DNA of 47,580 nt from Lachnospiraceae bacterium (GTDB taxonomy: Bacteria; Bacillota; Clostridia; Lachnospirales; Lachnospiraceae): the NCBI GenBank assembly GCA_017622875.1, contig JAGAQG010000038.1:1-47580 (forward strand). Direction: 5' to 3'. The translations under genes and the position numbers were made by a program. How positions within the stretch are numbered: the stretch's first letter is position 1; each line of letters begins with the position of its first letter. Below the pieces are notes generated by a model. That model did not search any database. It was not told the origin of the DNA and worked only from the letters and a program-made list of their open reading frames with translations. Below, in pieces: positions 6,573-47,510 of the stretch.

Positions 6573-7957
6573 ACGATTTCAATCTCCCTCTCCTTCGTAA
6601 GTCCATACACTTCCAGCCCCTCTTCCAAATAGAACTGCAGCTGGCGCACACATCGCTCACTGATCTTTTCTCCCGGCGTAAGCAGCGGAATTCCTGGCGG
6701 ATAGATATATACATAAGACGCAGATGTTTCTCCCATGCTTTCTAAAAGCGGCAGAGATTTCTTTGGTTTCTCCACTGCCTCGCAGATACGCATCAGAGCC
6801 TTCGGCCGTCCCATCTCATCATCTTCGGCAAATTTCATTGGACTTTTCTGCAATGCTTCATCAATTTCCAGAAGTGCGTCCAGAAATCTGCGATAATATT
6901 CATCCGTATCAGCCACACTGGTCATGAACAATACGTAATGCGCCGAAACCATCTCCGACTGAATGTGATATTTTTGTACCAGCTGTTTATGAAGCTCTTC
7001 CCCAGAAATATTGCTGTTTTTGGTAGAAATCAGCACCTTGGAAATATCATAGTCAAATACATTTTCCGGCTCTAAGAGCTGTAAATTCTTTAACCCCGTC
7101 TTAAATGCTGCCCGAAGCTTTCCTAATCTGGCAAGATATTTCTTATAGGCCTCTCTTCCCTCTTCCACATACCAATGCATCGCAGAATCAATACTTGCCA
7201 TCAGCACATAGGAGGGGCTGGTGGTCTGAAACATCGTCAGATATTTTCGCACTTTTGCTTTATATTTATAATCTTTATTTATATGAATCAGCGCAGTCTG
7301 TGTCAGTGCAGGCAATGTTTTATGAGTACTTTGAATCACCACATCTGCTCCGCAGCGAATAGCACTTTTCGGGAAACCGCTTTCCTTTAAAAAGTGTGCC
7401 CCATGAGCCTCGTCAATAATGACCGTCACACCCTTTGCATGGGCCGCTTTTACGATCTCCCTTACATCCGATACAACACCGTCATAAGTTGGAGACGTTA
7501 AGATCAATGCGCTTGCTTCCGGATGTTTTTCTATGGAAGCTTCCACCATTTCCACGGTAATGCTGCCCAAAATTCCCTCCGGCAGCATTTCCGGATAAAG
7601 GTAATGCGTCTTTAATTCCCGAAGCTCTGCGGCGTGATAAACTGTTTTATGACAGTTTCTTGCCATGATAAGTTCACCGCCCTGCTTTGTGGCCGAAAAA
7701 ATCGCACTTAAAATACCGCAGCTGCTTCCATTTACCAGAAAATGCGTCTCATCTGACTGACATACGAGTGCCGCATGTTTTTCGGCCTCCTTAATAATTC
7801 CTTCTGCATGATGAAGATTATCAAACCCGTCAATTTCTGTAATATCAAAGCTGTAAGGATTTTCAAACTCCATAAGGGCACGCTTATGTCCCGGCATATG
7901 AAACGGTACATAATCTGATTTACCATATTCAATTAATGCATCATAGAGTTTTGTCAT
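6551..7957 (-). CDS. Orn/Lys/Arg decarboxylase family PLP enzyme
   Basis: A 468-residue fold-type I PLP enzyme of the short, wingless Orn/Lys/Arg decarboxylase family found in Firmicutes (speA/cad-like). PLP features are visible: PFHMPGHKR near residue 20, the IDEAHGAH aspartate motif near 183, and the Schiff-base lysine in STHKTLPALTQ near 213. The C-terminal domain ends with YPPGIPLLTPGE. The substrate (arginine, lysine or ornithine) cannot be read from sequence. AGGAGAAGCAGG precedes the ATG. It begins the leftward run with the kinase-like gene and holB. Confidence 0.85.
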   Translation of the reverse strand: MTKLYDALIEYGKSDYVPFHMPGHKRALMEFENPYSFDITEIDGFDNLHHAEGIIKEAEKHAALVCQSDETHFLVNGSSCGILSAIFSATKQGGELIMARNCHKTVYHAAELRELKTHYLYPEMLPEGILGSITVEMVEASIEKHPEASALILTSPTYDGVVSDVREIVKAAHAKGVTVIIDEAHGAHFLKESGFPKSAIRCGADVVIQSTHKTLPALTQTALIHINKDYKYKAKVRKYLTMFQTTSPSYVLMASIDSAMHWYVEEGREAYKKYLARLGKLRAAFKTGLKNLQLLEPENVFDYDISKVLISTKNSNISGEELHKQLVQKYHIQSEMVSAHYVLFMTSVADTDEYYRRFLDALLEIDEALQKSPMKFAEDDEMGRPKALMRICEAVEKPKKSLPLLESMGETSASYVYIYPPGIPLLTPGEKISERCVRQLQFYLEEGLEVYGLTKEREIEIVWVEFFT

Positions 7958-17621: not shown

Positions 17622-17719
17622 GGGCGTGGAAGGGTAACTGGTGTGCCCCCTGGTCTTCAAAACCTGTGTTGGGCGTTAAGAGCGTCCTGGGTGGGTTCGA
17701 TTCCCACACACGTCCGCCA
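17622..17719 (+). tRNA. selC: Selenocysteine tRNA (UCA anticodon)
   Basis: A 98-nt gene with encoded CCA, an extended acceptor region (GGGCGTGG with ACACGTCC, last pair imperfect), anticodon loop CTTCAAA with TCA at 17657-17659, a long variable arm (17667-17691) and the T-arm GTGGGTTCGATTCCCAC. The length and long variable arm are typical of bacterial tRNA-Sec. It inserts selenocysteine at UGA with SelA and SelB, both encoded 18-21 kb to the right; the client fdhF is also here. One mismatch is seen in the anticodon stem. Confidence 0.95.
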
Positions 17720-35346: not shown

Positions 35347-36753
35347 TTAAATACTGTTATTTGTAAAAAGTTCTCTTATATGATCTATTAAATCAACTAA
35401 ATCCTCCGGCATCACAGTTCTCATATCAAGCCACACTTTATCATTTTTGATATGTGCAATGACTGGTGTCGAAAAATGTCTCATTTTTTCCGCCAACTCT
35501 TCACAGGAACTATCTTTCAGTCTGATCGTCACTGCATAACTTGGCAATTTCTCTCCCGGCAGAGAACCTCCGCCTACCATGGAATTGCTCTCTTCCACCA
35601 GAATCTCCGCCATTCCGGCGCATTCTGACAGCCCTGCATGCAGTGCTTCCGCCTGCGCCTTTAATTCCTCCAAAGGTCTTGCAATCATATGCAGTACAGG
35701 AATATTCTTTACTGCCCGCTCCTCATCCAGATATTCCCTGAACGTCGCGGTCAATGCCGCAATCGCGCACTTATCCAATCGAATTGCCCTCATCAGCGGA
35801 TAATGCTCCAGTTTCTGAATAATCTCCTTTTTACCGACAATGATTCCAGCCTGAGGTCCGCCAAGCAGCTTATCTCCCGAAAAACATACCAGATTAGCAC
35901 CCTTTTTCACCTGTTCCTGCACCGTCGGTTCATGTGCCAGTCCGTATTTTTCCAGATTAATGAGCACACCACTTCCTAAGTCCATAATTACCGGAAGATT
36001 ATATTTTTTACCCAACTGCGCAATCTCTTCTAAAGACGCTTCCTCGGTAAAACCTACCACCCTATAGTTACTTGTATGTACCTTTAAAAGTGCCCCTGTA
36101 TTTTCATTAATTGCATTTTCATAGTCTGAAATGCGGGTTCTATTGGTGGTTCCAACTTCTTTCAGCTTCGCGCCGCTTTGCTCCACCACCTCAGGAATAC
36201 GAAATTTTCCGCCGATTTCAATAGATTCCCCACGAGATACAACGACTTCTTTTCCCTTTGCCAGTGCACCAAAGATCAAAGTCAGAGAAGCCGCATTATT
36301 ATTTACTGCAATCGCTCCCTCTGTCCCTACAATTTTAGAGATGACATCTGCATAATGAGTCCAACGTTTTCCACGCTTTCCAGTTTCCAGATCATACTCC
36401 AGATTTGAATAACTGCACATTGCCTGTGCTGCCGCATCTAAATGAATCTTTCCAAGAGGTGCACGTCCTAAATTGGTATGCAAAATAATTCCCGTCGCAT
36501 TGCACACCTTTTTCAGCGGATATTCAATTTCTTTCAGAATCTTTTTTTCTACAAGACCCGGGAAATTCTTCAGACATTCTTCAAGCTGAACCACATCCTC
36601 CGATGCAATGAGCCCACGCATTCTCTCTAACTCCTGTCTGATACAGTCCACCACAAAACCACGTCCATATTCTTCACACAGCTTCCGAATTTTTTCATCT
36701 CCCAGCAGCACATCTACCTTCGGTAATTTTCTAAAAAGTTCCTTTGTACTCAT
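35347..36753 (-). CDS. selA: L-seryl-tRNA(Sec) selenium transferase
   Basis: A 468-residue fold-type I PLP enzyme that converts Ser-tRNA(Sec) to Sec-tRNA(Sec). The PLP lysine is K295 in CFSGDKLLGGPQAG. N-terminal tRNA-binding helices are present and SRGESIEIGGKFRIPEV is the family block. The start follows the selB stop by one base, so the two are translationally coupled. The partner selenophosphate synthetase (selD) is not in the window. Confidence 0.95.
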   Translation of the reverse strand: MSTKELFRKLPKVDVLLGDEKIRKLCEEYGRGFVVDCIRQELERMRGLIASEDVVQLEECLKNFPGLVEKKILKEIEYPLKKVCNATGIILHTNLGRAPLGKIHLDAAAQAMCSYSNLEYDLETGKRGKRWTHYADVISKIVGTEGAIAVNNNAASLTLIFGALAKGKEVVVSRGESIEIGGKFRIPEVVEQSGAKLKEVGTTNRTRISDYENAINENTGALLKVHTSNYRVVGFTEEASLEEIAQLGKKYNLPVIMDLGSGVLINLEKYGLAHEPTVQEQVKKGANLVCFSGDKLLGGPQAGIIVGKKEIIQKLEHYPLMRAIRLDKCAIAALTATFREYLDEERAVKNIPVLHMIARPLEELKAQAEALHAGLSECAGMAEILVEESNSMVGGGSLPGEKLPSYAVTIRLKDSSCEELAEKMRHFSTPVIAHIKNDKVWLDMRTVMPEDLVDLIDHIRELFTNNSI

Positions 36754-36754
36754 T

Positions 36755-38650
36755 CTATTTCAGGACTCTTCCTTCCTCCGTTTTTCTTGTAAATCCATTC
36801 TTATCAAAATGCTCCAAAAGTGCCACTGCCACCTTACGGGAACATTCCAGGTAATCTCTATAATTTCCCAGTACAATTACCTCACTCTTTGCAGCCATCT
36901 CCTTAAAAGCTTCTTTTGCTTTTTCATAATATTCTCTATGAATACAATACTGCTCATCCAGGCGAATTAAAATCTTTTTATTTAAAAGAGAAGTAAACAC
37001 CGCTTTAAATTTTCTCTGTTTTTGATGCTCTTTCAAATAGAAATCTGTCGTCAGCGGTGCAAATCCAAAATTCAGATACTGTTCCGTAATCTCCCGAATC
37101 ATGGCATCCTCATCCTCTTTTACCACAACTTGAAAGCGGTATCTGCTAATCGTGCCATTTTCTTCTTTAATGACCCTGTTTTTCTTCAAAATGTCAAGAA
37201 TCGTATCTGTAATTTTTACATTTTCCTGAATCTCCAGTTTATTTCTGGCCTCTTCAAGACCCATTCCCTCTTTTAAAGGATATTCCTTATGGAATTGATC
37301 TAAAAACTGTACTACTCTCTTTTCGTACAGCTTCATTTCTTCTTCATGAATGTAAATCTCATCAGACAATGGAATCAGCTTCCCTGTTTCTGCCAGCTTT
37401 TTCACTATATTTCTTACCTGACTGCGGTCAAAGGCACTTTTATTCATCAGAACCTTTAAAGAATAAAATTTTCCCTGATGCTCCCTATATGCCAGCTCTA
37501 TCTTCTGCTCTTCTGTTCCATTTTCCTTAATTTCAAAGGCTTTATATGCCTTCCTATCATTTTTACGATGTTTTTTCGGGCAGGCATCCAAAACAACACC
37601 TCCGCCAATAGTCTCCACCGGAGAATAGAATCGAAGAACAAAATGATCTCCCTTTCGTACCACCGTCTTTTCTTCCAGACGAAGCTGCGCATAACCGCTG
37701 TCCCCTGCCTTCAATTCATCACAATTCATCAAAGAAACTTTTCCCAGCAGTTCCTTTGTTCCGTGATAAATATGTACCCTGCTTCCATGTTTAATGGTAC
37801 GCTCTGTATGCTTTAATACCTCCAGCTTTACATCCACCATCATGGTTGGATATAAACTATCTGCAGTTGCCAGCACATCTCCCCGAAGGATTTCTTCTTT
37901 TTTTCGATCAGGCACATTCACTGCCACTCTCTGACCTGCCCATGCAGCTTCAGCATCCTTAGAGTGTACCTGCAGGCTTCTGACCTTTACCGGCTCATTT
38001 TCCGGATAAAGTACAATGTTCTGGTCTTTTTTTAACTTTCCTTCCATCAAAGTCCCTGTAACAATGGTTCCAAAGCCCTTCAATGTAAATACACGGTCAA
38101 TCGGTAATCTAAAATACCCTGCCTCGCTTCGTTCCGGGAGGGAAACACACAGTTCTGTCAGTACCTGTTTTAACTGTTCTAAGCCCTCTTCTTTATAAAC
38201 TGATACTGGCACTATGGGCGCATTTTCCAAAAAGGTTCCTTCTACCAGCTCTGCCACATCCTCAGCAACCAAATCCACAAATTCTGGTTCCACAAGATCT
38301 GTTTTTGTAATTACAATCACACCCTTTTTTATGCCAAGAATCGACAGAATATCCAGATGCTCCACCGTCTGTGGCATGATGCCTTCGTCTGCTGCCACTA
38401 CCAGCATACATAAATCCATGCCGCCAGCTCCAGCCAGCATGTTTCGTACAAATTTTTCATGCCCCGGAACATCTACGATTCCCACACGCTGTCCATTTGC
38501 CAGATCCAGATAGGCAAAGCCCAGCTCAATGGTAATACCTCTCTTTTTCTCCTCTTTTAATCTGTCTGTATCAATTCCTGTAAGTGCTTTGATCAGGCAG
38601 GTCTTTCCATGATCTACATGTCCTGCAGTGCCGATAATTACGTGTTTCAT
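36755..38650 (-). CDS. selB: Selenocysteine-specific elongation factor
   Basis: A 631-residue EF-Tu-like GTPase with Walker A GHVDHGKT (10-17), G3 DVPGHE (60-65) and G4 TKTD (115-118), followed by domains II-III and C-terminal winged helices (about 370-631) that bind the SECIS hairpin. It brings Sec-tRNA(Sec) to the ribosome at UGA. It is first in this leftward operon, just downstream of the promoter at 38684-38712. Confidence 0.95.
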
Positions 38651-38770: not shown

Positions 38771-38803
38771 AAAAAAAGAGAAGTCTCAATTTTAAGACTT
38801 CTC
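38771..38803 (-). terminator. Terminator left of the element (ancestral tRNA-Lys terminator)
   Basis: On the minus strand GAGAAGTCT pairs with AGACTTCTC around an 8-nt loop and ends in seven T residues. It lies 15 nt past the left 22-bp repeat, so before integration it would have ended the tRNA-Lys transcript. Confidence 0.85.
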
Positions 38804-38817
38804 ATGATTTCATATAA

Positions 38818-38839
38818 TGAAGCATCGGGGATTCGAACC
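38818..38839. repeat. Left attachment site (attL), tRNA-Lys fragment
   Basis: A 22-bp sequence identical to 47438-47459, equal to the last 22 bases of the tRNA-Lys gene (minus strand). Identity stops inside the T-arm, so this copy cannot make a tRNA. Confidence 0.88.
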
Positions 38840-38897
38840 GAGCAAACACTAAAAAAATGCAGTAAATTCAAGGATTTCACATCGTAAACATCCCAAA

Positions 38898-38918
38898 AGT
38901 AAACAAAAGTAAACAAAT
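38898..38918. repeat. Integrase arm-site candidate, left end
   Basis: A 21-nt sequence with two AGTAAACAAA-type units, identical to 47368-47388 at the right end; a further GTAAACA lies at about 38884. Paired short direct repeats near both ends fit arm-type sites of a tyrosine recombinase. Confidence 0.65.
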
Positions 38919-38937
38919 TTTATAAGGAGATTTTACG

Positions 38938-39144
38938 ATGAACGATATCATTACAAATGAATTTACAGACTATGAAATTAAAGAATTATTAAAGTATATA
39001 TGGATTTTTTCCATTTTAAAACTTCTATTCTTATTTATCATTGCAGTTACTCTAATAGTAATATGTATCATACTAAATGATATTTCTTTAGAAGTCAACC
39101 ATTTTATGTATCATGCATTTGATTGCTGTCACAACTTATTTTAG
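38938..39144 (+). CDS. Small membrane protein, unknown function
   Basis: A 68-residue protein with an acidic N-terminus, one long hydrophobic stretch at about residues 20-46, and a short tail with His and two Cys. AAGGAG lies upstream of the ATG. It is the first gene inside the left end of the element. Nothing identifies its role; a filamentous-phage coat is unlikely because there is no signal peptide or partner assembly gene. Confidence 0.6.
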   Translation: MNDIITNEFTDYEIKELLKYIWIFSILKLLFLFIIAVTLIVICIILNDISLEVNHFMYHAFDCCHNLF

Positions 39145-39156
39145 GAGGTCTGCCTG

Positions 39157-39423
39157 ATGAATAAAAATAATCTTACAATTATTGAAGAGAAAATTAATGC
39201 ACTGGACACCAATATAAAATGCCTTTTAGGGTTATTAGAAATCATTCATTTAGGTATGCTTTCCATGTACGATGCAAATGATGATACAGTAAATTTTGAA
39301 CTTGCATTTTTACATACTTTAAAGAACAGCCTCTATAGTATTTCTGAAAATGACATAAAAGATTTACTTGGTACAATAGAAAAATATAAACAATGTGTTG
39401 AACTTAAAAACTTTATGGAATAA
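39157..39423 (+). CDS. Small helical protein, unknown function
   Basis: An 88-residue, mostly helical acidic protein with a very good AGGAGG ribosome site, 12 nt after the small membrane protein gene, so the two are probably co-expressed. No domain is recognised. Confidence 0.6.
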   Translation: MNKNNLTIIEEKINALDTNIKCLLGLLEIIHLGMLSMYDANDDTVNFELAFLHTLKNSLYSISENDIKDLLGTIEKYKQCVELKNFME

Positions 39424-39444
39424 AATTAAAACAAATCAATTACA

Positions 39445-39466
39445 GGGGCATCACTTTAGATGCCTC
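39445..39466. repeat. Hairpin ahead of the element lipoprotein gene
   Basis: GGGGCATC pairs with GATGCCTC (8 bp, one G-T) around a 6-nt loop. There is no T-tract. It may end the preceding transcript weakly or protect the lipoprotein mRNA. Confidence 0.4.
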
Positions 39467-39486
39467 TGACAAAAGGAGAATACAAC

Positions 39487-40437
39487 ATGAAAACTACAAA
39501 ATACTTAACAACTATTTTATCATTGATTTTAGTTACTGCCCTATTATTTGCAGGCTGTGGCAAAAAAGAAGAAACTGTGACCGCAATTACAAGTGAACAG
39601 TTTACAACTTTATACGAAAACGCAAAAAACATCTATGCTGAAACACCTGAATTATTTATTGAAAATGCAGAAAAACCAAATATTGATTTAGACAGTGTAA
39701 CAGATTCAGAAATTCCAGTTTCAGAAGCAATTACTTTAAATGAAGTTTTGCAAACTCTTGGAGAAGAAAATTTATCCAATGAATCTTTTGACAAGGAACT
39801 TGATGAAGCAATAACAAAATCCGAAGCCATCGACCTCATCCTCAAAGCATACGAAGCAATCGCAAAAAGAGATGGTTATTCCACAGACCAACAGGATGGT
39901 TTAAACGAGGGTTCAGTAATCAACCGAGGCGATTCCACAACAGTAGATGATGCTCAAGGAACAATTGAAAAAGCAGACCTTGTAGATGGAACATCCTTAA
40001 CCCAGGAAGAGTTAGACAAATTAAATGCAGAAGCAACCACAGATGCTCAAAAAGAAGCCCTTGATGCATATGAAACCATCACCAAAGAAGGTAGTTGGAC
40101 AGATGCATATGGAGTAACCTATACAGAAGTAGTAGGCAAGCCAGATGGTAGTTGGAGAAGAATGACAGATGCAGAAGCAGAAAAAACCCTCGAAACAGCA
40201 AGTCCGGGTGAAGACAAATACTATTATGCACAGGCAGAGCTAAAAGGTAAAGATTACGTAAAATATGATACAGTAACTGGAATAGTTTACTATGATCCAT
40301 ATGAATACGCTGAGGCAACAGAAGCAGTCAGAGAGGAAAGTAGAAGAAAAAATGAAGCTGGAGGAGATATCGTATCCGAGGAAGAAATAAGGCAAATTCT
40401 TGGAGATGAAGCAGCCAAAGAGTTATTTGGTATTTAA
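39487..40437 (+). CDS. Element-encoded lipoprotein
   Basis: A 316-residue lipoprotein: a basic-hydrophobic signal peptide ending in LLFAGC (lipid cysteine at about 24), then an acidic mature chain rich in Glu, Thr and Asp. A weak internal similarity is seen around TKEGSWTDAYGVTYTEV and KPDGSWRRM. I chose the ATG at 39487 with AAAGGAG upstream; the longer frame starts within the hairpin. It is a surface cargo protein with no recognised enzyme motif; exclusion, adhesion or phage defence are all possible. Confidence 0.75.
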   Translation: MKTTKYLTTILSLILVTALLFAGCGKKEETVTAITSEQFTTLYENAKNIYAETPELFIENAEKPNIDLDSVTDSEIPVSEAITLNEVLQTLGEENLSNESFDKELDEAITKSEAIDLILKAYEAIAKRDGYSTDQQDGLNEGSVINRGDSTTVDDAQGTIEKADLVDGTSLTQEELDKLNAEATTDAQKEALDAYETITKEGSWTDAYGVTYTEVVGKPDGSWRRMTDAEAEKTLETASPGEDKYYYAQAELKGKDYVKYDTVTGIVYYDPYEYAEATEAVREESRRKNEAGGDIVSEEEIRQILGDEAAKELFGI

Positions 40438-40744
40438 TACAATCAGCTAGATCAACAATAGAAACAACTAAAGCGGAGGCAAAGGGGATATATCCCCTCC
40501 AACCTTTCAAATGTGCCAAACAGCACCAAAGCGGACAAGTGAACGAGGCTAAAGCAGAAGCGGAGGCGGAGGCTGTGCCACGGAGCGGAAGTCCGCAGTG
40601 CCTTATGGCACATTCCCCCGAAGGGGGTAGTACGAGCTAGCATTGCCTCGTACTTACGTATCTTGTATCTTACTATCTGAACCCCTTGATTTTCCTGACT
40701 TTCTATCCTTATCAATCAGATACACCTCTCCAATCTTATGTATC
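40438..40744. other. Hairpin-rich, GC-rich non-coding patch with TATCT repeats
   Basis: This gap contains no good gene. It holds consecutive stem-loops: GGAGG...CCTCC around GGGGATATATCCCC (40475-40500), GCGGA/TCCGC (40585-40596), GTGCC/GGCAC (40598-40611), CCCCC/GGGGG with a GAA loop (40615-40627) and GTACGAG/CTCGTAC (40630-40653). TATCT-type direct repeats follow at 40658-40679 and 40732-40755. The GC content stands out from the AT-rich element. A replication or transfer origin, or a structured RNA, is likely. Confidence 0.65.
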
Positions 40745-41473
40745 TTATGTATCTAACAAACTAAAATTCTTTTTATATTTATATTTCAGAATATATTCAG
40801 CCAAACTCCACCCTTTGATTAGTGGAATGTCTAAATTATCTATATAATATTTTAATTCATCATCATTTCTTAAATAAGGAGCAGGTATATTGTTTATTAT
40901 GTCTTGATATCCATTTAAAAAAATATATTGCTGTATACTATTTCTATTTAAACTCATTTCTTTTTGTAATTGTTCCACACCATCTTTTACTTTTTTAGGG
41001 ATTTTAATTTTGATATATAGATTTTCATAATCTTCCTCATCTGAAATATTCCATAGTGTTGCTATTTTTTCAATCTCTATATCTACTAATTTTTCAATCA
41101 TTCTTTTTCTTGATATTTTGCTTAATTCTTCTATTTTCTCCCGTTTTTTTTCTTCATTCTTAATTTTTTCATTCCTGATAGAAATTTTTCTATTTAGTTC
41201 AGCAATAGCAATATTTAATTCTATAATTTTCTCATTTAAATCAGCGTGAATTTTTTTGATTTTCTCATTCAGGGTACGACTTACTTCTACTTCAATTTTT
41301 TCTTCCCGATTCACATTTTTTTCTAAGCTTCTGAATTTTGGATAAAACTCGTTCTCTATCGCACAAATACCATTGTATATAGCAAAACTTACAATAGTTT
41401 TTTTATCTATACCTATATTTTTTTCGATTTGTTCTATCTGTGCATATCTGTATTTTGTTAAATGTATTTTCAT
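40745..41473 (-). CDS. Ribbon-helix-helix/coiled-coil protein
   Basis: A 242-residue protein on the minus strand, opposite to its element neighbours. The N-terminal MKIHLTKYRYAQIEQIEKNIG segment and a second one at about residues 150-185 (IKIPKKVKDGVEQLQKEMS) look like ribbon-helix-helix DNA-binding units, joined by a long lysine/glutamate coiled coil (about 55-125). AAGGGG precedes the ATG. A repressor, segregation or origin-binding protein is plausible; it is a candidate ligand for the element palindromes. No homologue could be named. Confidence 0.6.
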   Translation of the reverse strand: MKIHLTKYRYAQIEQIEKNIGIDKKTIVSFAIYNGICAIENEFYPKFRSLEKNVNREEKIEVEVSRTLNEKIKKIHADLNEKIIELNIAIAELNRKISIRNEKIKNEEKKREKIEELSKISRKRMIEKLVDIEIEKIATLWNISDEEDYENLYIKIKIPKKVKDGVEQLQKEMSLNRNSIQQYIFLNGYQDIINNIPAPYLRNDDELKYYIDNLDIPLIKGWSLAEYILKYKYKKNFSLLDT

Positions 41474-41563
41474 TCCGATTACCCCTTAATATTTTTATTT
41501 AATTCTTAAACATTGTACCATATTTTTCAAAATTCGTTCAAAAACTTATCAAAAAGCATCTTT

Positions 41564-41582
41564 TTGGGAGAATTTTCCCCAA
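41564..41582. repeat. G-run/C-run hairpin with TTTT loop
   Basis: TTGGG pairs with CCCAA around AGAATTTTC. It resembles the two better hairpins at 42777-42797 and 44893-44926 in having G-run and C-run arms and a T-rich loop. Confidence 0.35.
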
Positions 41583-41716
41583 TGAATCGATGCCTAAATT
41601 TAAACCCCCCTAAATATGCGACAATACAATCACAATAAGTGATGCGCAAACTTAAATAAATAAAAAGGAGAAAACGAGTCTAGCTAGGGCAAGTGTACAC
41701 ACTCCTGTAAAAAAAA

Positions 41717-42061
41717 TTGATTTATAGTAAATTGCAGTATGTAAAAAATTTAGAACAGGAACAGAAAACATGGAAAAAACTAAAAAAAGAAGCACAAAAA
41801 GGCGATGCCTTAACTAACGCAGGATTAAAAAAATTACAGTCCATTCCAAAAATCGATGAAAAAATCAAAGAAATCGAAACTGCTAGAAAAGCCCTCATTG
41901 TTGAACTAAAAGATTGGTTCGAATCTGTTGATATGGCTGATGAAGATAAGTGCATGATTTCAGATTATTATTTTAATGGAAAATCAAAAGCAGAAGTTCA
42001 GAAAAAATATCTTATCGATTGCTTTTATAGCAGAGTAAAAAAATACGCTTATAAAGTGTAA
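41717..42061 (+). CDS. Sigma-region-4-like small protein, unknown function
   Basis: A 114-residue protein with a charged coiled N-terminus and a C-terminal segment (about 75-114: CMISDYYFNGKSKAEVQKKY...YSRVKKYAYKV) that resembles the region-4-like helix-turn-helix of phage late-transcription and DUF1492 proteins. The start is TTG (41717, or 41732) and neither has a ribosome site, so its N-terminus is uncertain. A strong terminator follows directly. It could control element transcription. Confidence 0.5.
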   Translation: MIYSKLQYVKNLEQEQKTWKKLKKEAQKGDALTNAGLKKLQSIPKIDEKIKEIETARKALIVELKDWFESVDMADEDKCMISDYYFNGKSKAEVQKKYLIDCFYSRVKKYAYKV

Positions 42062-42084
42062 TAACAATTTAATCTCAATTCCAA

Positions 42085-42115
42085 CAGGGTGTCAAAAGCA
42101 CCCTGTTTTCTTTTT
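42085..42115 (+). terminator. Terminator after the sigma-like gene
   Basis: CAGGGTG and CACCCTG form a 7-bp stem with a 7-nt loop, followed by a T-rich run. It isolates the left genes of the element from the palindrome-driven replication genes. Confidence 0.85.
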
Positions 42116-42191
42116 AAAAAAACTTTGTTTATTTAGTCATTTGCTATCCTAAAACTGTAATAGGAAAACCATTCTTTTAAACTTTCTTATT

Positions 42192-42204
42192 TACACTAAG
42201 TTTA
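42192..42204. promoter_or_regulatory. Degenerate copy of the element palindrome
   Basis: TACACTAAGTTTA shares the left half-site and centre of the TACACTWAGTGTA palindrome but has one change in the right half. It lies 62 nt before a perfect copy, upstream of the SSB-like gene. Confidence 0.5.
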
Positions 42205-42265
42205 TGAAACCATTTGTTACGATGAATATGTGACAGAGAACTGCACTTTACAAATTTTCTATTTT

Positions 42266-42278
42266 TACACTAAGTGTA
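42266..42278. promoter_or_regulatory. Element palindrome, copy ahead of the first SSB-like gene
   Basis: TACACTAAGTGTA, a perfect 6-bp inverted repeat with a central A, 80 nt before the 42359 start codon. Confidence 0.7.
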
Positions 42279-42358
42279 TAAGATGAGCTGTTATTGTAAA
42301 AGTGTAACATGAAAATGAGCTTTTAAAGCTCCAAAAAATTTTTAAGGAGGACATTATT

Positions 42359-42751
42359 ATGAAATTAAGAAATGTCAGATTAACTCTTGCGAATGTTGCA
42401 AGAACAACTAATTCCAAAACAATGGAAGTAACCAACGTTGGAACTATCAAAACTCGCCAAGAAGATGGTACATATTCCAACGAAATCAGCAATTACACCG
42501 TTGATTGTGCTGCATACCGTGGTGATGTGCTTAAAGTAAAATTTCCACTTGATGTAGCTGAAAAAATCGCTAAACTCAAAAATCATCTCGAAAATGATGA
42601 ACTTGTAGAAATCAGTTTTAAAGGTTTAAAACTCACTCCATATGCTATGAAAGCAAACGATGGTTCCGTACTTTCAGGAGTATCTGCAAAAGCAGATGAT
42701 TTTGAAATCCATGTCAAAGAATGGGACATTGATGAAGATATTGAACTATAA
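42359..42751 (+). CDS. SSB-like small protein A of the element
   Basis: A 130-residue acidic protein with a predicted beta-rich core and a negatively charged tail (DIDEDIEL). The tail recalls single-stranded DNA-binding proteins. It shares an order of short motifs (KFPLDVAEKI..., ISFKGLKLTPYA, ADDFEI) with the protein from 42830, so they are divergent paralogues. AAGGAGG precedes the ATG. A role in rolling-circle replication is inferred from the neighbouring Rep. Confidence 0.55.
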   Translation: MKLRNVRLTLANVARTTNSKTMEVTNVGTIKTRQEDGTYSNEISNYTVDCAAYRGDVLKVKFPLDVAEKIAKLKNHLENDELVEISFKGLKLTPYAMKANDGSVLSGVSAKADDFEIHVKEWDIDEDIEL

Positions 42752-42776
42752 AAACAGTTCATCAACCTACTTTTTT

Positions 42777-42797
42777 GGGGGAGTTATTTTCTCCCCC
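42777..42797. repeat. Hairpin GGGGGAG/CTCCCCC with TTATTTT loop
   Basis: A perfect 7-bp GC-rich stem between the two SSB-like genes. It is preceded by a T-run but not followed by one, so it is not a normal rightward terminator. The loop resembles the one downstream of rep. Confidence 0.65.
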
Positions 42798-42829
42798 TGT
42801 TATCAAGCATATTCATCGAGGTTAAAATC

Positions 42830-43171
42830 ATGGAATTTTTAATGAAAGATTTATCCCCCACAGGAAATGACATAGGAATCTGCGTTTCATTCAGATTCTA
42901 CGCAAAATCCTATGACTGGAACGCAGTTCCAACATCATTTGGTCTAAAAATATCTATAAAAAATTCTGCTGACACTATGCTGATTAAAGTTCCTGTATCT
43001 ATAGGAAATTTAAAGGCAACAGATTTAAAAAATGAGCTATTAAAAAATGATGTTGCAGGAGTTCGTTTTAAAAATTTGAAAATATGGACGTATCAGCATA
43101 CCAACAAACGGACTAAAGAACAAAAAACAATCTACACCGGCACAGCCGATGATTTTGAAATCATTTATTAG
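42830..43171 (+). CDS. SSB-like small protein B of the element
   Basis: A 113-residue protein that aligns by eye with the 42359 product over its second half: VPVSIGNLKATDLKNELLKNDVAGVRFKNLKIWTY against KFPLDVAEKI...VEISFKGLKLTPY, and both end near ADDFEI. It lacks the acidic tail. Single-stranded DNA binding or Rep assistance is suggested by position. The ATG has only a weak GAGG-type site. Confidence 0.5.
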   Translation: MEFLMKDLSPTGNDIGICVSFRFYAKSYDWNAVPTSFGLKISIKNSADTMLIKVPVSIGNLKATDLKNELLKNDVAGVRFKNLKIWTYQHTNKRTKEQKTIYTGTADDFEIIY

Positions 43172-43182
43172 GAGTATTCTAT

Positions 43183-43746
43183 ATGGAAAACAAAAAAACT
43201 ATAATAAAAAAATTTTTCAGTGAAAGTCTTAGTTTTTCAAAAATCGCACTTGCAAATGCTGAAAAATACTTAAGTGATGCATACGAAAATTATAATAAAA
43301 AAGTATTAGAAAAACAAAAGCAACAACAACTTCAAATGCAGATGCAAATGAAACAAAATGAGATACAGACAGCACAACAAATCATGATAATTTTAGCAAA
43401 GCAGCTTGCTCCTGCTTTCTATTGTCATAAATATGATTTTTTAGAAAAAATCTATGAGCCTTCAAATCTAAGATTAGAAGATTACAAATATTACGATAAT
43501 ATATGGTTACTGCGTTATTCCATTGATAAAAACTGCGATATTCCTATTCCTCAATGGGATAAAAAACAGTTACATAAAAAACTATCACAAGACCTTGCAC
43601 GTTATGTACAGGATACTCTATATCATAATCCTTTAGAAGTATTACAACTTGATTATTTTTACATTCTGTGCAACCCAACCATCTATAATATTACAGATAA
43701 TAGTCCTGCAAAGAAAATTTTTGTAGATATAAAAATCACACTTTAA
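43183..43746 (+). CDS. Glutamine-rich helical protein, unknown function
   Basis: A 187-residue protein with a Gln/Met-rich helical stretch (about 44-65) and a C-terminal domain of mixed composition. TAGGAG precedes the ATG. It lies directly ahead of rep and ends three bases before the palindrome of the rep promoter. No domain is recognised. Confidence 0.6.
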   Translation: MENKKTIIKKFFSESLSFSKIALANAEKYLSDAYENYNKKVLEKQKQQQLQMQMQMKQNEIQTAQQIMIILAKQLAPAFYCHKYDFLEKIYEPSNLRLEDYKYYDNIWLLRYSIDKNCDIPIPQWDKKQLHKKLSQDLARYVQDTLYHNPLEVLQLDYFYILCNPTIYNITDNSPAKKIFVDIKITL

Positions 43747-43748
43747 TT

Positions 43749-43761
43749 TACACTAAGTGTA
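43749..43761. promoter_or_regulatory. Element palindrome, copy ahead of rep
   Basis: TACACTAAGTGTA, a perfect copy 50 nt upstream of the rep start codon and 3 nt after the previous stop codon. Confidence 0.7.
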
Positions 43762-43810
43762 CTGCTCCACCATGTATGATGATTCTATCATTAGAGGAGG
43801 AGCAGTTTTT

Positions 43811-44848
43811 ATGTCAGAAGAATTAAAGAAACAAAAAAAGGATACACAATCAAGAGCCTATTCCATCTGCCTGCACAACATTGAAGATACAGGATTTACG
43901 CATGAAAAAATCAAAAATATCCTTGCATCTTTTCCTACCTTAACCTATTTTTGCATCGCAGATGAAATAGGATGTGAAACAAAAAAACTTCATACGCATT
44001 TATATTTTCACTGTAGAAATCCAGTAAAATTTTCAACACTTAAAAACAAATTCGAGGGATCAGATTTACACATTGAAACTTCCATGGGGTCAGCACAGGC
44101 AAATCGTGATTATATCTTCAAACTTGGTAAATGGGCTGATGATATGAAAGCAGAACAGAAACTTCCCGAAACACAGGAAGAATGGGGCACACTTCCTTTC
44201 TCACAGCAAGGGCGCAGAACAGACCTTATCGCAATGTATGATTTAGTCAAAGAGGGAAAATCCAATGCAGAGATTTTAGAAATCTGTGGAGAAACCGCCA
44301 TAAAACATGTTGATAAAATCAACAAGCTAAGGCATGACTATCTCGTTGACAAATTCAAAGGCACAAGACGGTTAGATTTAAAAGTGCATTACATCACAGG
44401 TAAAACAGGCACTGGAAAATCAAGAGATATTCTTGATACACATGGAGATTCCAATGTTTACCGAGTGACAGACTATCAGCACCCCTTTGATTCTTACCAG
44501 TTAGAACCCGTCATTGTTTTTGAAGAATTTCGTTCCTCGCTCCGCCTGCAAGATATGCTTAATTTTTTAGACATCTATCCTGTAAACCTACCTGCACGTT
44601 ACTCTCCCAGAGTATGCTGTGCTTCTACAATATACATAGTCTCAAACTGGGATTTTGAACAGCAATATTCAGAAATCCAAAAAGACCCTGACCAGAAATC
44701 AACTTATCAGGCATGGATTCGTCGATTCAATGGATATGCAAAAGTCTACTATGATTTAGGTAAATACATAGAATATGATTCCATTCAATCTTATCTTAAA
44801 CGAAATGAAGATTTTCAGCCAGTAACTGACGATGTGCCATTTGATTGA
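43811..44848 (+). CDS. rep: CRESS-type rolling-circle Rep (HUH endonuclease plus superfamily 3 helicase)
   Basis: A 345-residue Rep with the layout of CRESS-DNA virus and pCRESS plasmid proteins. HUH domain: motif I YFCIADE (46-52), motif II HTH (61-63), motif III YIFK with catalytic Y101 and K104. Helicase domain: Walker A GKTGTGKS (197-204), Walker B VIVFEEF (234-240), motif C IVSN (276-279). It would nick one strand at an origin and unwind it. I chose the ATG at 43811, behind AGAGGAGG; an open frame adds 18 unsupported residues. The neighbouring SSB-like genes and palindromes fit a replication module. Confidence 0.9.
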   Translation: MSEELKKQKKDTQSRAYSICLHNIEDTGFTHEKIKNILASFPTLTYFCIADEIGCETKKLHTHLYFHCRNPVKFSTLKNKFEGSDLHIETSMGSAQANRDYIFKLGKWADDMKAEQKLPETQEEWGTLPFSQQGRRTDLIAMYDLVKEGKSNAEILEICGETAIKHVDKINKLRHDYLVDKFKGTRRLDLKVHYITGKTGTGKSRDILDTHGDSNVYRVTDYQHPFDSYQLEPVIVFEEFRSSLRLQDMLNFLDIYPVNLPARYSPRVCCASTIYIVSNWDFEQQYSEIQKDPDQKSTYQAWIRRFNGYAKVYYDLGKYIEYDSIQSYLKRNEDFQPVTDDVPFD

Positions 44849-44892
44849 TTTTTTCTTGTTTACCCAACGCTTAGCGTCTAAGCTGTCACAAA

Positions 44893-44926
44893 GCACTTAG
44901 GGGGTGTATTTTAACCCCTTACGTGC
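44893..44926. other. Candidate rolling-circle origin hairpin downstream of rep
   Basis: GCACTTAGGGGGT and ACCCCTTACGTGC pair over 13 positions (one mismatch, one G-T) around the 8-nt loop GTATTTTA. It lies 45 nt after rep, is flanked by GCTTA/TAAGC and ACGCT/AGCGT repeats (about 44867-44883) and by GACTGACT, and precedes a palindrome copy. A stem-loop beside rep with an AT-rich loop is typical of nicking sites, but the exact CRESS nonamer is not present. Confidence 0.55.
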
Positions 44927-44954
44927 GACTGACTGATACGGTTATACTACGATT

Positions 44955-44967
44955 TACACTTAGTGTA
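44955..44967. promoter_or_regulatory. Element palindrome, copy ahead of the 58-residue gene
   Basis: TACACTTAGTGTA, followed 10 nt later by TGAAATAAT, a spacing and sequence repeated at 45242. This suggests a shared promoter in which the palindrome overlaps the -35 region. Confidence 0.7.
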
Positions 44968-45018
44968 GAAAATTATGTGAAATAATACATATATAAAACA
45001 CAAAAGGAGAATAAAAAA

Positions 45019-45195
45019 ATGAATTTTAATTTTATTACTGGAAATCCAACAATTACAAAACAGGCAAACGGAAAATATCAGGTGTTATATGCACAGCCCC
45101 CTATTGGTAAAATCAAAAATTTCACAGATTTAACCCTTGAAGAAGTCAAAAAACTTCCCTTTGTCAATCCAACAGTTCTTGCACTTTTGAACTAA
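45019..45195 (+). CDS. 58-residue protein, unknown function
   Basis: A short gene with an excellent AAAAGGAG site and its own palindrome promoter. The product begins MNFNFITGNPTITKQANGKY and is predicted to be a small beta-rich domain with a KIKNFTDLTLEEVKKLPF segment. A hairpin follows at 45211-45228. The function is not known; it could be a regulator or a replication cofactor. Confidence 0.65.
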   Translation: MNFNFITGNPTITKQANGKYQVLYAQPPIGKIKNFTDLTLEEVKKLPFVNPTVLALLN

Positions 45196-45210
45196 CCTAT
45201 CAGGAGTTTT

Positions 45211-45228
45211 TGGGGCATCACAGCCCCA
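45211..45228. terminator. Hairpin after the 58-residue gene
   Basis: TGGGGC and GCCCCA form a 6-bp GC-rich stem with a 6-nt loop. GGAG and CTCC extend it more distantly. The U-tract is lacking, so termination may be partial. Confidence 0.5.
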
Positions 45229-45241
45229 TCTGCTCCAACTT

Positions 45242-45254
45242 TATACTTAGTGTA
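45242..45254. promoter_or_regulatory. Element palindrome, near-perfect copy
   Basis: TATACTTAGTGTA differs from the consensus at one base. TGAAATAAT follows at the same 10-nt spacing as at 44955. It drives the 45308 gene. Confidence 0.65.
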
Positions 45255-45307
45255 GCCAAATATATGAAATAATGAAAATAGAATTATTAACAAGGAGGTT
45301 CTTAATT

Positions 45308-45937
45308 ATGGAAGATTTATTTCTTTCAGGCTTAACAGTCAGTGCCATTGAAGGTAACCAAATATACGGCACTGTTGATATTTTATTTGGTAAAAAAAAT
45401 TATCGTGCCACATACACTTATGCTCTCGGAGCAGGAGTTTCTATAGAAGGATTCACTTGTTTAGATACAAACATGTTTTCCTTGGGCGGTGTGTTTATTT
45501 TGGGAAAAGATAACATTCCAGTTTCAAAAAAAATCATTGATTTTATTGAAGGAATTTTTATTCATAATACAACCAAATGCCATTCTTTAATACCTTCAGA
45601 TTATTATGGATATTTAGATGTTGATTCCCTTGACAGACTATGTCCGCCTATGTGGCAAGGACAACATCATAAGCAATCTTATGGTATTCATCCAGTATTA
45701 AAAGATAATGACCATCCATATTTATACTGGTATTCAGTTATCTATGAGGACACTTTATATAAAATGATTCGTGAATGTGAAGATTTCCCAAAGTGGCAAG
45801 ATGAAATAGTAAAATTTGATATCCGAGAACTATCGACTTATACACCTCCAAAATCATGGAGAGAAGAAGGAACAAAAGAATACGTTGTTCCTATTATCAG
45901 AAGTGCTGTTAGAAAAGGCGAAATAATACCTATATAA
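45308..45937 (+). CDS. Hypothetical element protein
   Basis: A 209-residue protein with an N-terminal beta-rich half (VSAIEGNQIYGTVDILFG) and a C-terminal half with LCPPMWQGQHHKQSYGIHP and a WREEGTKEY tail. No known domain is recognised. I chose the ATG at 45308 with CAAGGAGG upstream; a frame extension of 12 residues lies over that site. It is between the 58-residue gene and the integrase. Confidence 0.65.
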   Translation: MEDLFLSGLTVSAIEGNQIYGTVDILFGKKNYRATYTYALGAGVSIEGFTCLDTNMFSLGGVFILGKDNIPVSKKIIDFIEGIFIHNTTKCHSLIPSDYYGYLDVDSLDRLCPPMWQGQHHKQSYGIHPVLKDNDHPYLYWYSVIYEDTLYKMIRECEDFPKWQDEIVKFDIRELSTYTPPKSWREEGTKEYVVPIIRSAVRKGEIIPI

Positions 45938-45942
45938 AAATA

Positions 45943-45956
45943 AGGTCAGCTATGAC
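45943..45956. repeat. Hairpin between the hypothetical gene and the integrase
   Basis: GGTCA and TGACC form a 5-bp stem around GCTA. The AT-rich 100 nt that follow show GTAAC direct repeats but no clear gene or promoter. Confidence 0.35.
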
Positions 45957-46055
45957 CGCTTAAAAAATAAATAAATAAGGGGTAACGAAATCCCTATTAA
46001 AATAAAGTAACCCATATTGTAAAAGAAACCCTCTTAAGGATTTCCCGAAATTTTT

Positions 46056-47366
46056 TTGAATACAAAACCGAACAAATTTTCGAAAGAAACATTACAATTT
46101 TACCTGACCTGTGATATAATATCTTTAGACGATGTGATGTCCTTGTCACAGGAGGATATCATGCTAAAGATTTTAAAAGAAGTCCATCCTTATTCTGTGT
46201 TCTATTCAGAATCAGACAACAGATGGCACACAACAATCGCAGACAATACCAAAGTAAACGGAAGGAGACCTATAGCCCGAAAAAATAAATTAGACCTTGA
46301 AAAATTTCTATTGGAACATTATCACTTGGAATTAACCCATGAACAATTACAGGAGCAGGATGATGAAGCTAAAACATTTAAGGAAGTCTTTGAAATTGCA
46401 CAAAATAAAAAACTGCAATATATCAAAACTCCTGAAAAAATGATTAGTGCTAAAAATACAGCCCTGAAAACAGATTCAGAATACCGCAGATATTTTGCCG
46501 GCACAGATTTTGAAAATATGCCTATTAACAAAATCACAAAAAACGATGTTGAAAATATCTGCTTGGAAAATCTACGAAAATACGATTTAAAGAAAAAAGC
46601 ATTTCTTTCTATGCGTGGAATCTTAAAATCTGTTTTTGATTTGGCTTTTTCAGAATACTGGATTTCAGATAATGTGTATCAACGCATTATATTCAAAAAA
46701 TTCAATGATATGCTGATTCCTGATACTCCAACTCATAAAAGAGTTCATTCAGCAAAAGAATTTTCTGATATCCTGAAAGAACTTCATAAAAAGCAAAAAG
46801 CTCAACCAAAATTCAGCACTTACTGGGCTTTGGAACTGCAAATGATTATGGGGTTAAGACGTGGAGAAATCCCACCTTTATGTTGGAATGCAGATATAAA
46901 AGATACCTATGTCAGTATAACAAAAGAACAGCTTACCAGTGGAAATGGGTATGTGATAGTTGAACACACCAAAAATCACAAAGAACGATTTTTTCCTATC
47001 ACAAATGATTTACAGGAATTTTTGATAAGATTAAAAGCAATGCATGAAAAATATTATCCTGATAGTCAATTTTTATTTCCTGCTGACACACCAAACGGTT
47101 GTATCACAAATAATGCTGTGTATAAGGTCTATCAGGGCATTTGTAAGACATTAGGTATAGAAATCATCAAAGGCGAAATAAAAGGGCCTCATTCGTTCCG
47201 TAGGAATGCTATCACAGAGGTTGTAAATTCAACAAACGGAAATGTTGTTTTAGCATCTGCCCTTTTTGGCAACTCACCACAGGTAGCAAAGGAAAATTAT
47301 TACACGGGTGCTAATCTTGCGATTGCAAAAGAAATATTAGATAAAAGAATACTTGTACAAAATTAA
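46056..47366 (+). CDS. int: Tyrosine recombinase/integrase
   Basis: A 436-residue phage-type integrase. A SAM-like core-binding domain (about 105-215) precedes the catalytic domain with R268 (GLRRGE), K306, H379-x2-R382 (HSFRR) and Y416 (NYYTG); position 406 is Asn where many have His. The start is uncertain: TTG at 46056 keeps an N-terminal SLDDV segment seen in relatives, while ATG at 46161 has a perfect AGGAGG. It ends 72 nt from the intact tRNA-Lys, as expected for an enzyme recombining at that site. Confidence 0.92.
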   Translation: MNTKPNKFSKETLQFYLTCDIISLDDVMSLSQEDIMLKILKEVHPYSVFYSESDNRWHTTIADNTKVNGRRPIARKNKLDLEKFLLEHYHLELTHEQLQEQDDEAKTFKEVFEIAQNKKLQYIKTPEKMISAKNTALKTDSEYRRYFAGTDFENMPINKITKNDVENICLENLRKYDLKKKAFLSMRGILKSVFDLAFSEYWISDNVYQRIIFKKFNDMLIPDTPTHKRVHSAKEFSDILKELHKKQKAQPKFSTYWALELQMIMGLRRGEIPPLCWNADIKDTYVSITKEQLTSGNGYVIVEHTKNHKERFFPITNDLQEFLIRLKAMHEKYYPDSQFLFPADTPNGCITNNAVYKVYQGICKTLGIEIIKGEIKGPHSFRRNAITEVVNSTNGNVVLASALFGNSPQVAKENYYTGANLAIAKEILDKRILVQN

Positions 47367-47367
47367 G

Positions 47368-47388
47368 AGTAAACAAAAGTAAACAAAT
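47368..47388. repeat. Integrase arm-site candidate, right end
   Basis: A 21-nt sequence identical to 38898-38918, immediately after the integrase stop codon. Confidence 0.65.
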
Positions 47389-47405
47389 CTTTTGGGGTAA
47401 AAATG

Positions 47406-47428
47406 AAAAAACCCTTGAAAATCAAGGG
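47406..47428 (-). terminator. Element-borne terminator for tRNA-Lys
   Basis: On the minus strand CCCTTGA and TCAAGGG form a stem followed by six T residues, 10 nt beyond the tRNA 3' end. It replaces the ancestral terminator now at 38771-38803. Confidence 0.85.
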
Positions 47429-47437
47429 TCTTAACAG

Positions 47438-47459
47438 TGAAGCATCGGGGATTCGAACC
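47438..47459. repeat. Right attachment site (attR), 3' end of tRNA-Lys
   Basis: The 22 bp identical to 38818-38839; here it completes a functional tRNA. Confidence 0.88.
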
Positions 47460-47510
47460 CCGGACAACTTGATTAAAAGTCAAGTGCTCTACCGACTGAG
47501 CTAATGCTCC
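47438..47510 (-). tRNA. tRNA-Lys (UUU anticodon)
   Basis: A 73-nt gene with acceptor GGAGCAT/ATGCTTC (one G-T), discriminator A and no encoded CCA, D-arm GCTCAGTCGGTAGAGC, anticodon loop CTTTTAA and T-arm CCGGGGTTCGAATCCCCG. It is intact although the element occupies its 3' flank. Confidence 0.96.

Follow-up and report, generated by a model that had tools for sequence, protein, structure and literature searches.

Streptococcal elements that combine an integrase with a "relaxase" of the rolling-circle replication (RCR) initiator type (Viral_Rep, or Rep_2 plus helicase), with or without TcpA, have been read as integrative and mobilizable elements (IMEs) (PMC5357655). In the Rep_2-helicase class, TcpA is present in 4 of 15 elements and no coupling protein in the other 11, and both Viral_Rep cases carry TcpA; loss of tcpA was inferred in several lineages (PMC5357655). 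Site-specifically integrated elements with such replication proteins (Reps) have also been published as pCRESS1-9 (PMC6668415). RCR-type IMEs and pCRESS plasmids are already in print, and this kind of element is itself known. Here, we analyze a 47,580-nucleotide stretch of DNA from a Lachnospiraceae bacterium (assembly GCA_017622875.1, contig JAGAQG010000038.1, positions 1 to 47,580), referred to as the window, in which an integrated element spans positions 38818-47459. It is probably an integrative, mobilizable-type element whose Rep, of the type found in circular Rep-encoding single-stranded (CRESS) DNA viruses, would initiate both replication and transfer: the element would be excised, nicked, copied as a rolling circle, and mobilized by a conjugative element.

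The Rep gene (43811-44848, + strand) encodes a 345-aa protein with the motifs HTHLYFH, NRDYIFK, GKTGTGKS, VIVFEEF, and IYIVSNW. The protein matches Pfam Viral_Rep (PF02407; E 2.2e-4, 21.9 bits) and RNA_helicase (PF00910; E 0.012), both under the curated cut-offs, as well as the solved CRESS-type Rep 7lar (E 2.3e-8), which we take to be a circovirus Rep. By its sequence, it is a CRESS-type Rep, with the catalytic motifs of an HUH nuclease and the motifs of a superfamily 3 (SF3) helicase intact. Integration at the 3' end of a tRNA-Lys gene is likewise evident from the sequence. ARAGORN places an intact tRNA-Lys(TTT) gene at 47437-47510 (minus strand), and exact 22-bp direct repeats that copy its 3' end lie at 38818-38839 (attL) and, within the gene, at 47438-47459 (attR), giving a predicted excised circle of 8,620 bp. 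The neighboring open reading frame (ORF; 46056-47366, + strand, start codon uncertain) encodes a tyrosine integrase (phrog_216, E 1.2e-17). Just internal to both ends lies an identical 21-bp pair, AGTAAACAAAAGTAAACAAAT (38898 and 47368), within 27-bp stretches of 93% identity (38895-38921 and 47365-47391) that are probably arm-type sites of the integrase. GC content is mostly 0.28-0.38 within the element and mostly 0.39-0.46 outside. The original prediction, made from the DNA letters, had described HUH and SF3 motifs within one 345-residue protein, an intact tRNA-Lys beside an integrase, and 22-bp direct repeats; all of these are borne out, with the Rep motifs intact and the repeats exact at both ends.

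That earlier account did not include the origin. A hairpin scan and DNA folding predict an origin hairpin at 40629-40654 (+ strand), AGTACGAG[C TAGCATT^GC]CTCGTACT, in which the loop is bracketed and the caret marks the predicted nick at 40644/40645. The hairpin has an 8-bp stem and a 10-nt loop containing the nonanucleotide TAGCATTGC, and it forms when positions 40600-40700 are folded as single-stranded DNA (ssDNA; z = -2.97). Three GTATCTT repeats 3' of the hairpin (at 40658, 40665, and 40740; 40658-40746, + strand) are possible Rep-binding iterons. The origin likely lies at 40629-40654, with a predicted Rep cleavage site at the 40644/40645 junction.

Hairpins of this kind accompany related Reps in other genomes, whose loci are given L numbers below. 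Intergenic hairpins in L010 and L011 have loops with TAGTATTAC and AAGTATTAC. Across the loci longer than 5 kb plus the window (561,714 bp), Rep-strand hairpins occur in most loci, as compared to 0.5 per mononucleotide-shuffled set. Of 59 Rep places, 55 have a NANNATTNC hairpin on the Rep strand and 4 have one on the other strand, whereas 30 dinucleotide shuffles gave a mean of 2.03 loci with a hairpin and a maximum of 6. For this count, Rep ORFs longer than 200 aa were taken on the best-match strand and at least 600 bp of upstream sequence was required. The 59 places are the 64 Rep places minus the copies L071, L082, and L020 and minus L121 and L142, which lie too near a contig start; they are not independent lineages, with L016, L018, and L021 being near copies in Rep. 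The nonanucleotide is TAGTATTAC in 43 of the 55 loci, AAGTATTAC in five, and GAGTATTAC and CAGTATTAC in two each, with TAATATTAC, TAGCATTGC (the window), and TATCATTGC (L072) in single loci. Nine loci hold one extra hairpin candidate each; one of these is the origin of a neighboring element, and most of the others misfit the virus pattern and were read as chance. The pattern was unmatched on the Rep strand in L012, L018, L022, and L138. L012 has a hairpin outside the scan pattern at 7569, GATGCGGGGGG[TAGTGTTA]CCCCCCGCATC, with the nonanucleotide TAGTGTTAC. The hairpin usually lies no more than 350 bp upstream of Rep, as compared to 1.8-3.1 kb in elements of the window type and about 2.35 kb in L012.

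Virus Rep co-crystals show pairing between T-4 and A+1 of the nonanucleotide (PMC7826260), and circovirus Rep requires a Watson-Crick pair at -4/+1, of any identity (PMC9973303). The pair is T.A in 53 of the 55 counted hairpins and C.G in two (the window and L072), and it is unpaired in none; since GTATTAC was preferred where a locus had several candidates, this count is biased toward T.A. The window site, TAGCATT^GC, has C at -4 and G at +1, two departures from TAGTATTAC. The second -4C.+1G site belongs to L072 (G438), an element that carries FtsK and branches separately in the Rep tree; its hairpin is 1187 bp upstream of Rep. Among virus origins, -4C.+1G was reported in 3 of 13,537 gemini-like, 0 of 1,801 circo-like, and 0 of 6,228 nano-like sequences (PMC9973303). 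Retention of the pair despite two changes is the best internal evidence for a working hairpin and for a nick at 40644/40645. The same observation bears on whether the element is a decayed, immobile remnant that merely looks intact. Such decay would fit the two nonanucleotide differences from TAGTATTAC and motif I of Rep, YSICLHN, in which Cys replaces the Thr found in most rows of the Rep alignment. However, decay would not favor changes that keep the -4/+1 pair, and Rep, the integrase, and the att repeats are intact. The motif I Cys also recurs in L012, alone among the other window-type rows, and some further rows likewise lack the Thr. We consider decay highly improbable.

The surroundings of Rep were compared across its relatives. 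At E 1e-3, 25 of 397 family genomes match the window Rep, and at E 1e-20 so do 25 of 392 genomes of the order and 11 of 391 of the class, with the window's own genome included in each set; a scan of named genomes gave 13 Rep loci. Six GenBank inovirus phage records carry a Rep 39-44% identical to that of the window, and PLSDB contains a single match, in Bifidobacterium (NC_003527, 29%). Near-identical Reps occur in L018, from a metagenome-assembled genome named Bacteroides, and in L016 and L021, from Oscillospiraceae, which reflects either recent transfer or a binning error. Three gene settings are seen. In the first, Rep has an FtsK/SpoIIIE-type ATPase upstream, in many cases together with a separate membrane partner. 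In the second, found in inovirus records and prophages, Zot lies upstream of Rep, and several of the six GenBank inovirus records also have "RstB-like" genes. In the third, the window type, the genes o130 and/or o187 are present with no ATPase except Rep (the window, L010, L011, L012, L085, and L120).

The Rep tree contains 60 rows, namely the 64 Rep places minus three copies (L071, L082, and L020) and the 213-aa L143. Rows were labeled from profiles within 4.5 kb upstream, with 17 left unlabeled and five labels set by hand (L019, L124, L079, and L080 as Zot; L014 as FtsK), and the midpoint root is for drawing only. The window Rep forms a clade with L012, L010, L011, and L120 (support 100/96), which the FtsK-bearing L078 joins at 97/88. 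The 19-row clade around the window (100/99) comprises 13 FtsK rows, five window-type rows, and one unlabeled row; every Zot row falls outside it, and the sixth window-type row, L085, is placed elsewhere. Because the window clade is nested among FtsK-bearing elements, the simplest reading is descent from such elements with loss of the motor. The window element would then represent a mobilizable-element lineage rather than a phage. The original prediction had weighed a Rep of CRESS/pCRESS type against one grouping with conjugative or phage relaxases. The CRESS type stands, and the Rep also groups with mobilizable-type elements, so this comparison does not separate the two.

The tree also informs a reading of the element as a filamentous-phage satellite that keeps Rep and ssDNA-binding proteins and borrows the coat and Zot export machine of a helper, for which RS1 of CTX phage is the comparison case. 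The six inovirus records with related Reps, several with Zot upstream and "RstB-like" genes, are consistent with this idea, as are the inovirus size of the element and its OB-fold proteins. However, the window Rep groups with the FtsK elements and not with the Zot rows, the element has no Zot, and the sole Zot-profile match in the assembly looks by eye like a PhoH-type host ORF. IMG/VR, moreover, gave no confirmed relative when searched with the single Rep protein or with a five-sequence Rep alignment, and no exact match to the hairpin. Given the tree placement and the absence of Zot, we lowered our estimate of this reading and now regard it as improbable. Separately, Zot-profile matches to frames of 330-357 aa in G000, G012, G042, G098, and G099 were set aside, as they look like a shared host gene (judged from G000, the only one inspected). 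The Zot-bearing inoviruses themselves (L023-L027, that is, PQ006121, PQ006124, PQ006184, PQ006138, and PQ006165, together with L017, L019, L074, and L080) have Reps with HUH and SF3 motifs, and most have a hairpin with TAGTATTAC. Inovirus Reps are said to be without a helicase domain in PMC6668415; the GenBank inovirus records with an HUH-SF3 Rep contradict that statement.

No capsid, Zot, coupling-protein, or mating-pore (type IV secretion system) gene was recognized among the 12 ORFs of the element in Pfam and PHROG profile searches, and neither database gave a match to viral structural proteins. Rep is the only ORF with a P-loop; o187 has none, and there is no FtsK-type ATPase. These scans agree with the original prediction, which had recognized no transfer or capsid genes and had left the mode of spread open. 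That question is now narrowed, since the tree places Rep among integrative elements that carry FtsK/TcpA and separates it from the phages with Zot. One alternative is a pCRESS-like integrative plasmid without a capsid, excising and replicating as a rolling circle with no dedicated transfer route and spreading by chance uptake or transduction. All data on Rep, the att sites, and the missing transfer genes fit this description, and such elements were so classed in PMC6668415. However, the Rep clade is nested among elements with an FtsK/TcpA-like protein directly upstream of Rep, a gene order that PMC5357655 interprets as a mobilization module. The distribution of the relatives also argues against a plasmid with no transfer route. 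Exact repeats at a tRNA 3' end are found in five of the six window-type elements, counting that of the window, at tRNA-Lys in the window, tRNA-Gly TCC in L010 and L011, tRNA-Gly GCC in L120, and tRNA-Thr in L085. With five of six elements of one class carrying them, the repeats are beyond chance. The sixth, L012, adjoins a tRNA-Thr gene, at which a repeat was looked for and none was found. FtsK-type loci with repeats at a tRNA are L013, L073, L075, L077, L078, L081, and L084. Sister elements at tRNA genes other than tRNA-Lys are seen within Lachnospiraceae. Related elements thus occupy different tRNA genes in different genera, which indicates effective spread. We consider the transfer-less plasmid rather unlikely.

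In the mobilizable-type element that we favor, integration and Rep-based replication are likely, and we infer that the best-supported route of spread is mobilization by way of a foreign coupling protein, for which the origin would double as origin of transfer (oriT). The integrase would excise the 8.6 kb circle. Rep would open the hairpin, nick TAGCATT^GC at 40644/40645, and unwind the DNA with its helicase domain, with the OB-fold proteins o130 and o113 coating ssDNA or assisting the helicase during rolling-circle copying. The same nick would serve as oriT, and a conjugative element resident in the same cell would take over the Rep-ssDNA complex through its coupling protein, perhaps with o187 as a leftover docking domain. 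When a helper is absent, the element would be inherited along with the chromosome. A borrowed coupling protein is proposed because the element's own motor is lost. In keeping with the pCRESS-type plasmid, a search of the assembly (87.7% complete) for the expected TcpA/MobT helper found none; Rep_trans has no match there, and AAA_10 only matches under the cut-off. Other transfer genes in the assembly are MobP-type relaxases (three matches) and one VirD4-like fragment.

The small proteins encoded upstream of Rep were compared with those of the FtsK-type elements. The product of o130 (42359-42751, + strand) aligns with the matching family of these elements at an hhalign probability of 96.9 (E 2e-10), and by this profile comparison it is homologous to the corresponding gene of FtsK-bearing elements. 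Its model (pLDDT 83) has an OB fold and matches 2k5d with a TM of 0.53, and ssDNA-binding proteins are among the top structural matches. The Pfam match to DUF961 is weak: in the o130/o113/c5 alignment, two of the 14 members match it, at a best E of 0.067. On the basis of the model, o130 is predicted to be a DUF961-like ssDNA-binding or processivity protein. Its neighbor o113 (42830-43171, + strand) is a paralogue (hhalign probability 76.5, E 2e-5). The third gene, o187 (43183-43746, + strand), encodes a long helix and an alpha/beta domain. A relationship to the N-terminal domain of TcpA was unsupported in a first profile comparison and weak in a second that used seven subgroups and seven control families; o187 is possibly a motor-less remnant of that domain.

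Several genes of the element may share a regulator. When at most one mismatch is allowed, the 2.74 Mb assembly contains five sites of the palindrome TTTACACTWAGTGTA (seven matches on both strands), all inside the element. The genes o130 and Rep and the 58-aa and 208-aa ORFs have copies 64-95 bp ahead of their starts, and there is an extra copy at 42190. At up to three mismatches, the window has 11 matches as compared to a shuffle mean of 2.36, and none of 100 shuffles reaches 11. Two copies (42190 and 42264; 42190-42278) are upstream of o130, TTTACACTAAGTGTA (43747-43761) is upstream of Rep, and those at 44953 and 45240 (44953-45254) precede the 58-aa and 208-aa ORFs. These sites could be the targets of a regulator, for which the 242-aa protein described below is a candidate.

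From left to right, the element encodes a 68-aa membrane protein (38938-39144, + strand) with a hydrophobic segment, an 88-aa ORF (39157-39423, + strand), and a 315-aa lipoprotein (39490-40437, + strand; lipobox FAGC by a simple rule). The origin hairpin follows, and then the 242-aa coiled-coil protein (40745-41473, - strand) and a 114-aa ORF (41717-42061, + strand). The right half contains o130, o113, o187, Rep, the 58-aa (45019-45195, + strand) and 208-aa (45311-45937, + strand) ORFs, and the integrase. The 88-, 114-, and 208-aa ORFs match no Pfam family above the cut-off, and the 58-aa frame is recognized as an ORF only. The 242-aa candidate regulator has ends that look by eye like ribbon-helix-helix domains and a match to Pfam HTH_36 under the cut-off (E 0.025). 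A weak homologue of the 68-aa protein occupies the same place in the sister element L010 (30%, E 4.6e-4). In the five window-type (O-class) elements with a known left end (the window, L010, L011, L085, and L120), the region left of the origin encodes exported or membrane-anchored products, and mutually unrelated lipoproteins are found there in the window (39490-40437), L010 (6133-6879), and L011 (5686-6504).

Further features concern the integration site. tRNA-Lys is a frequent site of IME integration (PMC7563491). A terminator-like hairpin supplied by the element (47408-47432, - strand) lies 5 bp beyond the tRNA-Lys gene, and the presumed chromosomal terminator of that gene lies beyond attL (38778-38803, minus strand), adjoining selB. 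The element's own hairpin appears to stand in for the one displaced. A selenocysteine gene set is nearby, with tRNA-Sec at 17622-17719 and selA- and selB-like ORFs (named by eye) in 35347-38650. SelB relatives 39-43% identical were found in 14 of 120 genomes besides the window's own, and none has a tRNA within flanks of about 1.5 kb; the search gave no genome from the window's own genus. In L077 (G147 contig 11), two tandem elements occupy one tRNA-Gly, with different CRESS-type Reps and with an integrase and a hairpin each.

Our literature search, which did not cover supplements, returned no report on the origin nonanucleotides of pCRESS or IME elements, and the term is absent from the main text of PMC6668415. 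In the literature searched, we likewise found neither a virus-type nick site shared across bacterial elements, nor its paired variants, nor one Rep family linking mobilizable elements and Zot-bearing phages. We tentatively propose, as a broader idea that may well prove wrong, that one cassette of a CRESS-type Rep and a nonanucleotide hairpin is common to bacterial mobilizable elements, Gram-positive filamentous phages, and eukaryotic CRESS-DNA viruses. The virus-type origin would also act as oriT in the mobilizable elements, and the window clade would be a motor-less branch in which o187 docks a foreign coupling protein and the nick site has drifted to a paired -4C.+1G. The plasmid ancestry of eukaryotic CRESS-DNA viruses has so far been argued from Rep trees. 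A matching nick site in bacterial elements offers an independent, testable link and a defined biochemical substrate, and the -4C.+1G sites of the window and L072 provide a natural test of the base-pair rule obtained with circovirus Rep in vitro. The Rep tree allows one to ask how mobilizable elements and filamentous phages exchange a replication module, and also whether a virus-type origin can act as oriT.

The window element can finally be set against four groups of known systems and one conjugation module. The conjugation start module of Tn916 and ICEBs1 has the order DUF961/HelP, TcpA, MobT. The window shares this order, with small OB-fold proteins, then the position of the motor, held here by o187, and then the nicking protein; in place of MobT and a motor, however, it has a CRESS-type Rep, no motor, and a weak DUF961 match. 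With the CRESS-Rep inoviruses ("bajarodino virus" records and the prophages L017, L019, L074, and L080), it has in common the origin hairpin and a homologous Rep. Most of them lack an integrase, and they carry Zot and genes of coat size, whereas the window element has an integrase and no Zot. With the Firmicutes RCR IMEs (Rel_PF02407 and Rel_PF01719-PF00910; PMC5357655), it shares a compact integrase plus Rep-type relaxase, tRNA 3'-end sites, an optional coupling protein, and the lack of a mating pore. As described there, those elements come from streptococci and carry Rep_2 or Viral_Rep, whereas the window is from a Lachnospiraceae genome and matches Viral_Rep only under the cut-off; its clade also retains an o187 gene in the former position of the motor, along with a recognizable CRESS-type origin. 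An HUH-SF3 Rep, site-specific integration, and the absence of capsid genes are shared with pCRESS1-9 (PMC6668415), in the main text of which we found no discussion of mobilization modules or origin hairpins. Motif III is YLxH in pCRESS4-8 and YIFK in the window Rep. Lastly, the origins of eukaryotic CRESS-DNA viruses (circo-, nano-, and geminiviruses) likewise present a nonanucleotide in a loop of 10-13 nt with a Watson-Crick pair at -4/+1. Their stems of 9-11 bp (PMC7826260) are longer than the 8 bp of the window, and the -4C.+1G pair, nearly absent from those virus origins (PMC9973303), is the one that the window hairpin carries.

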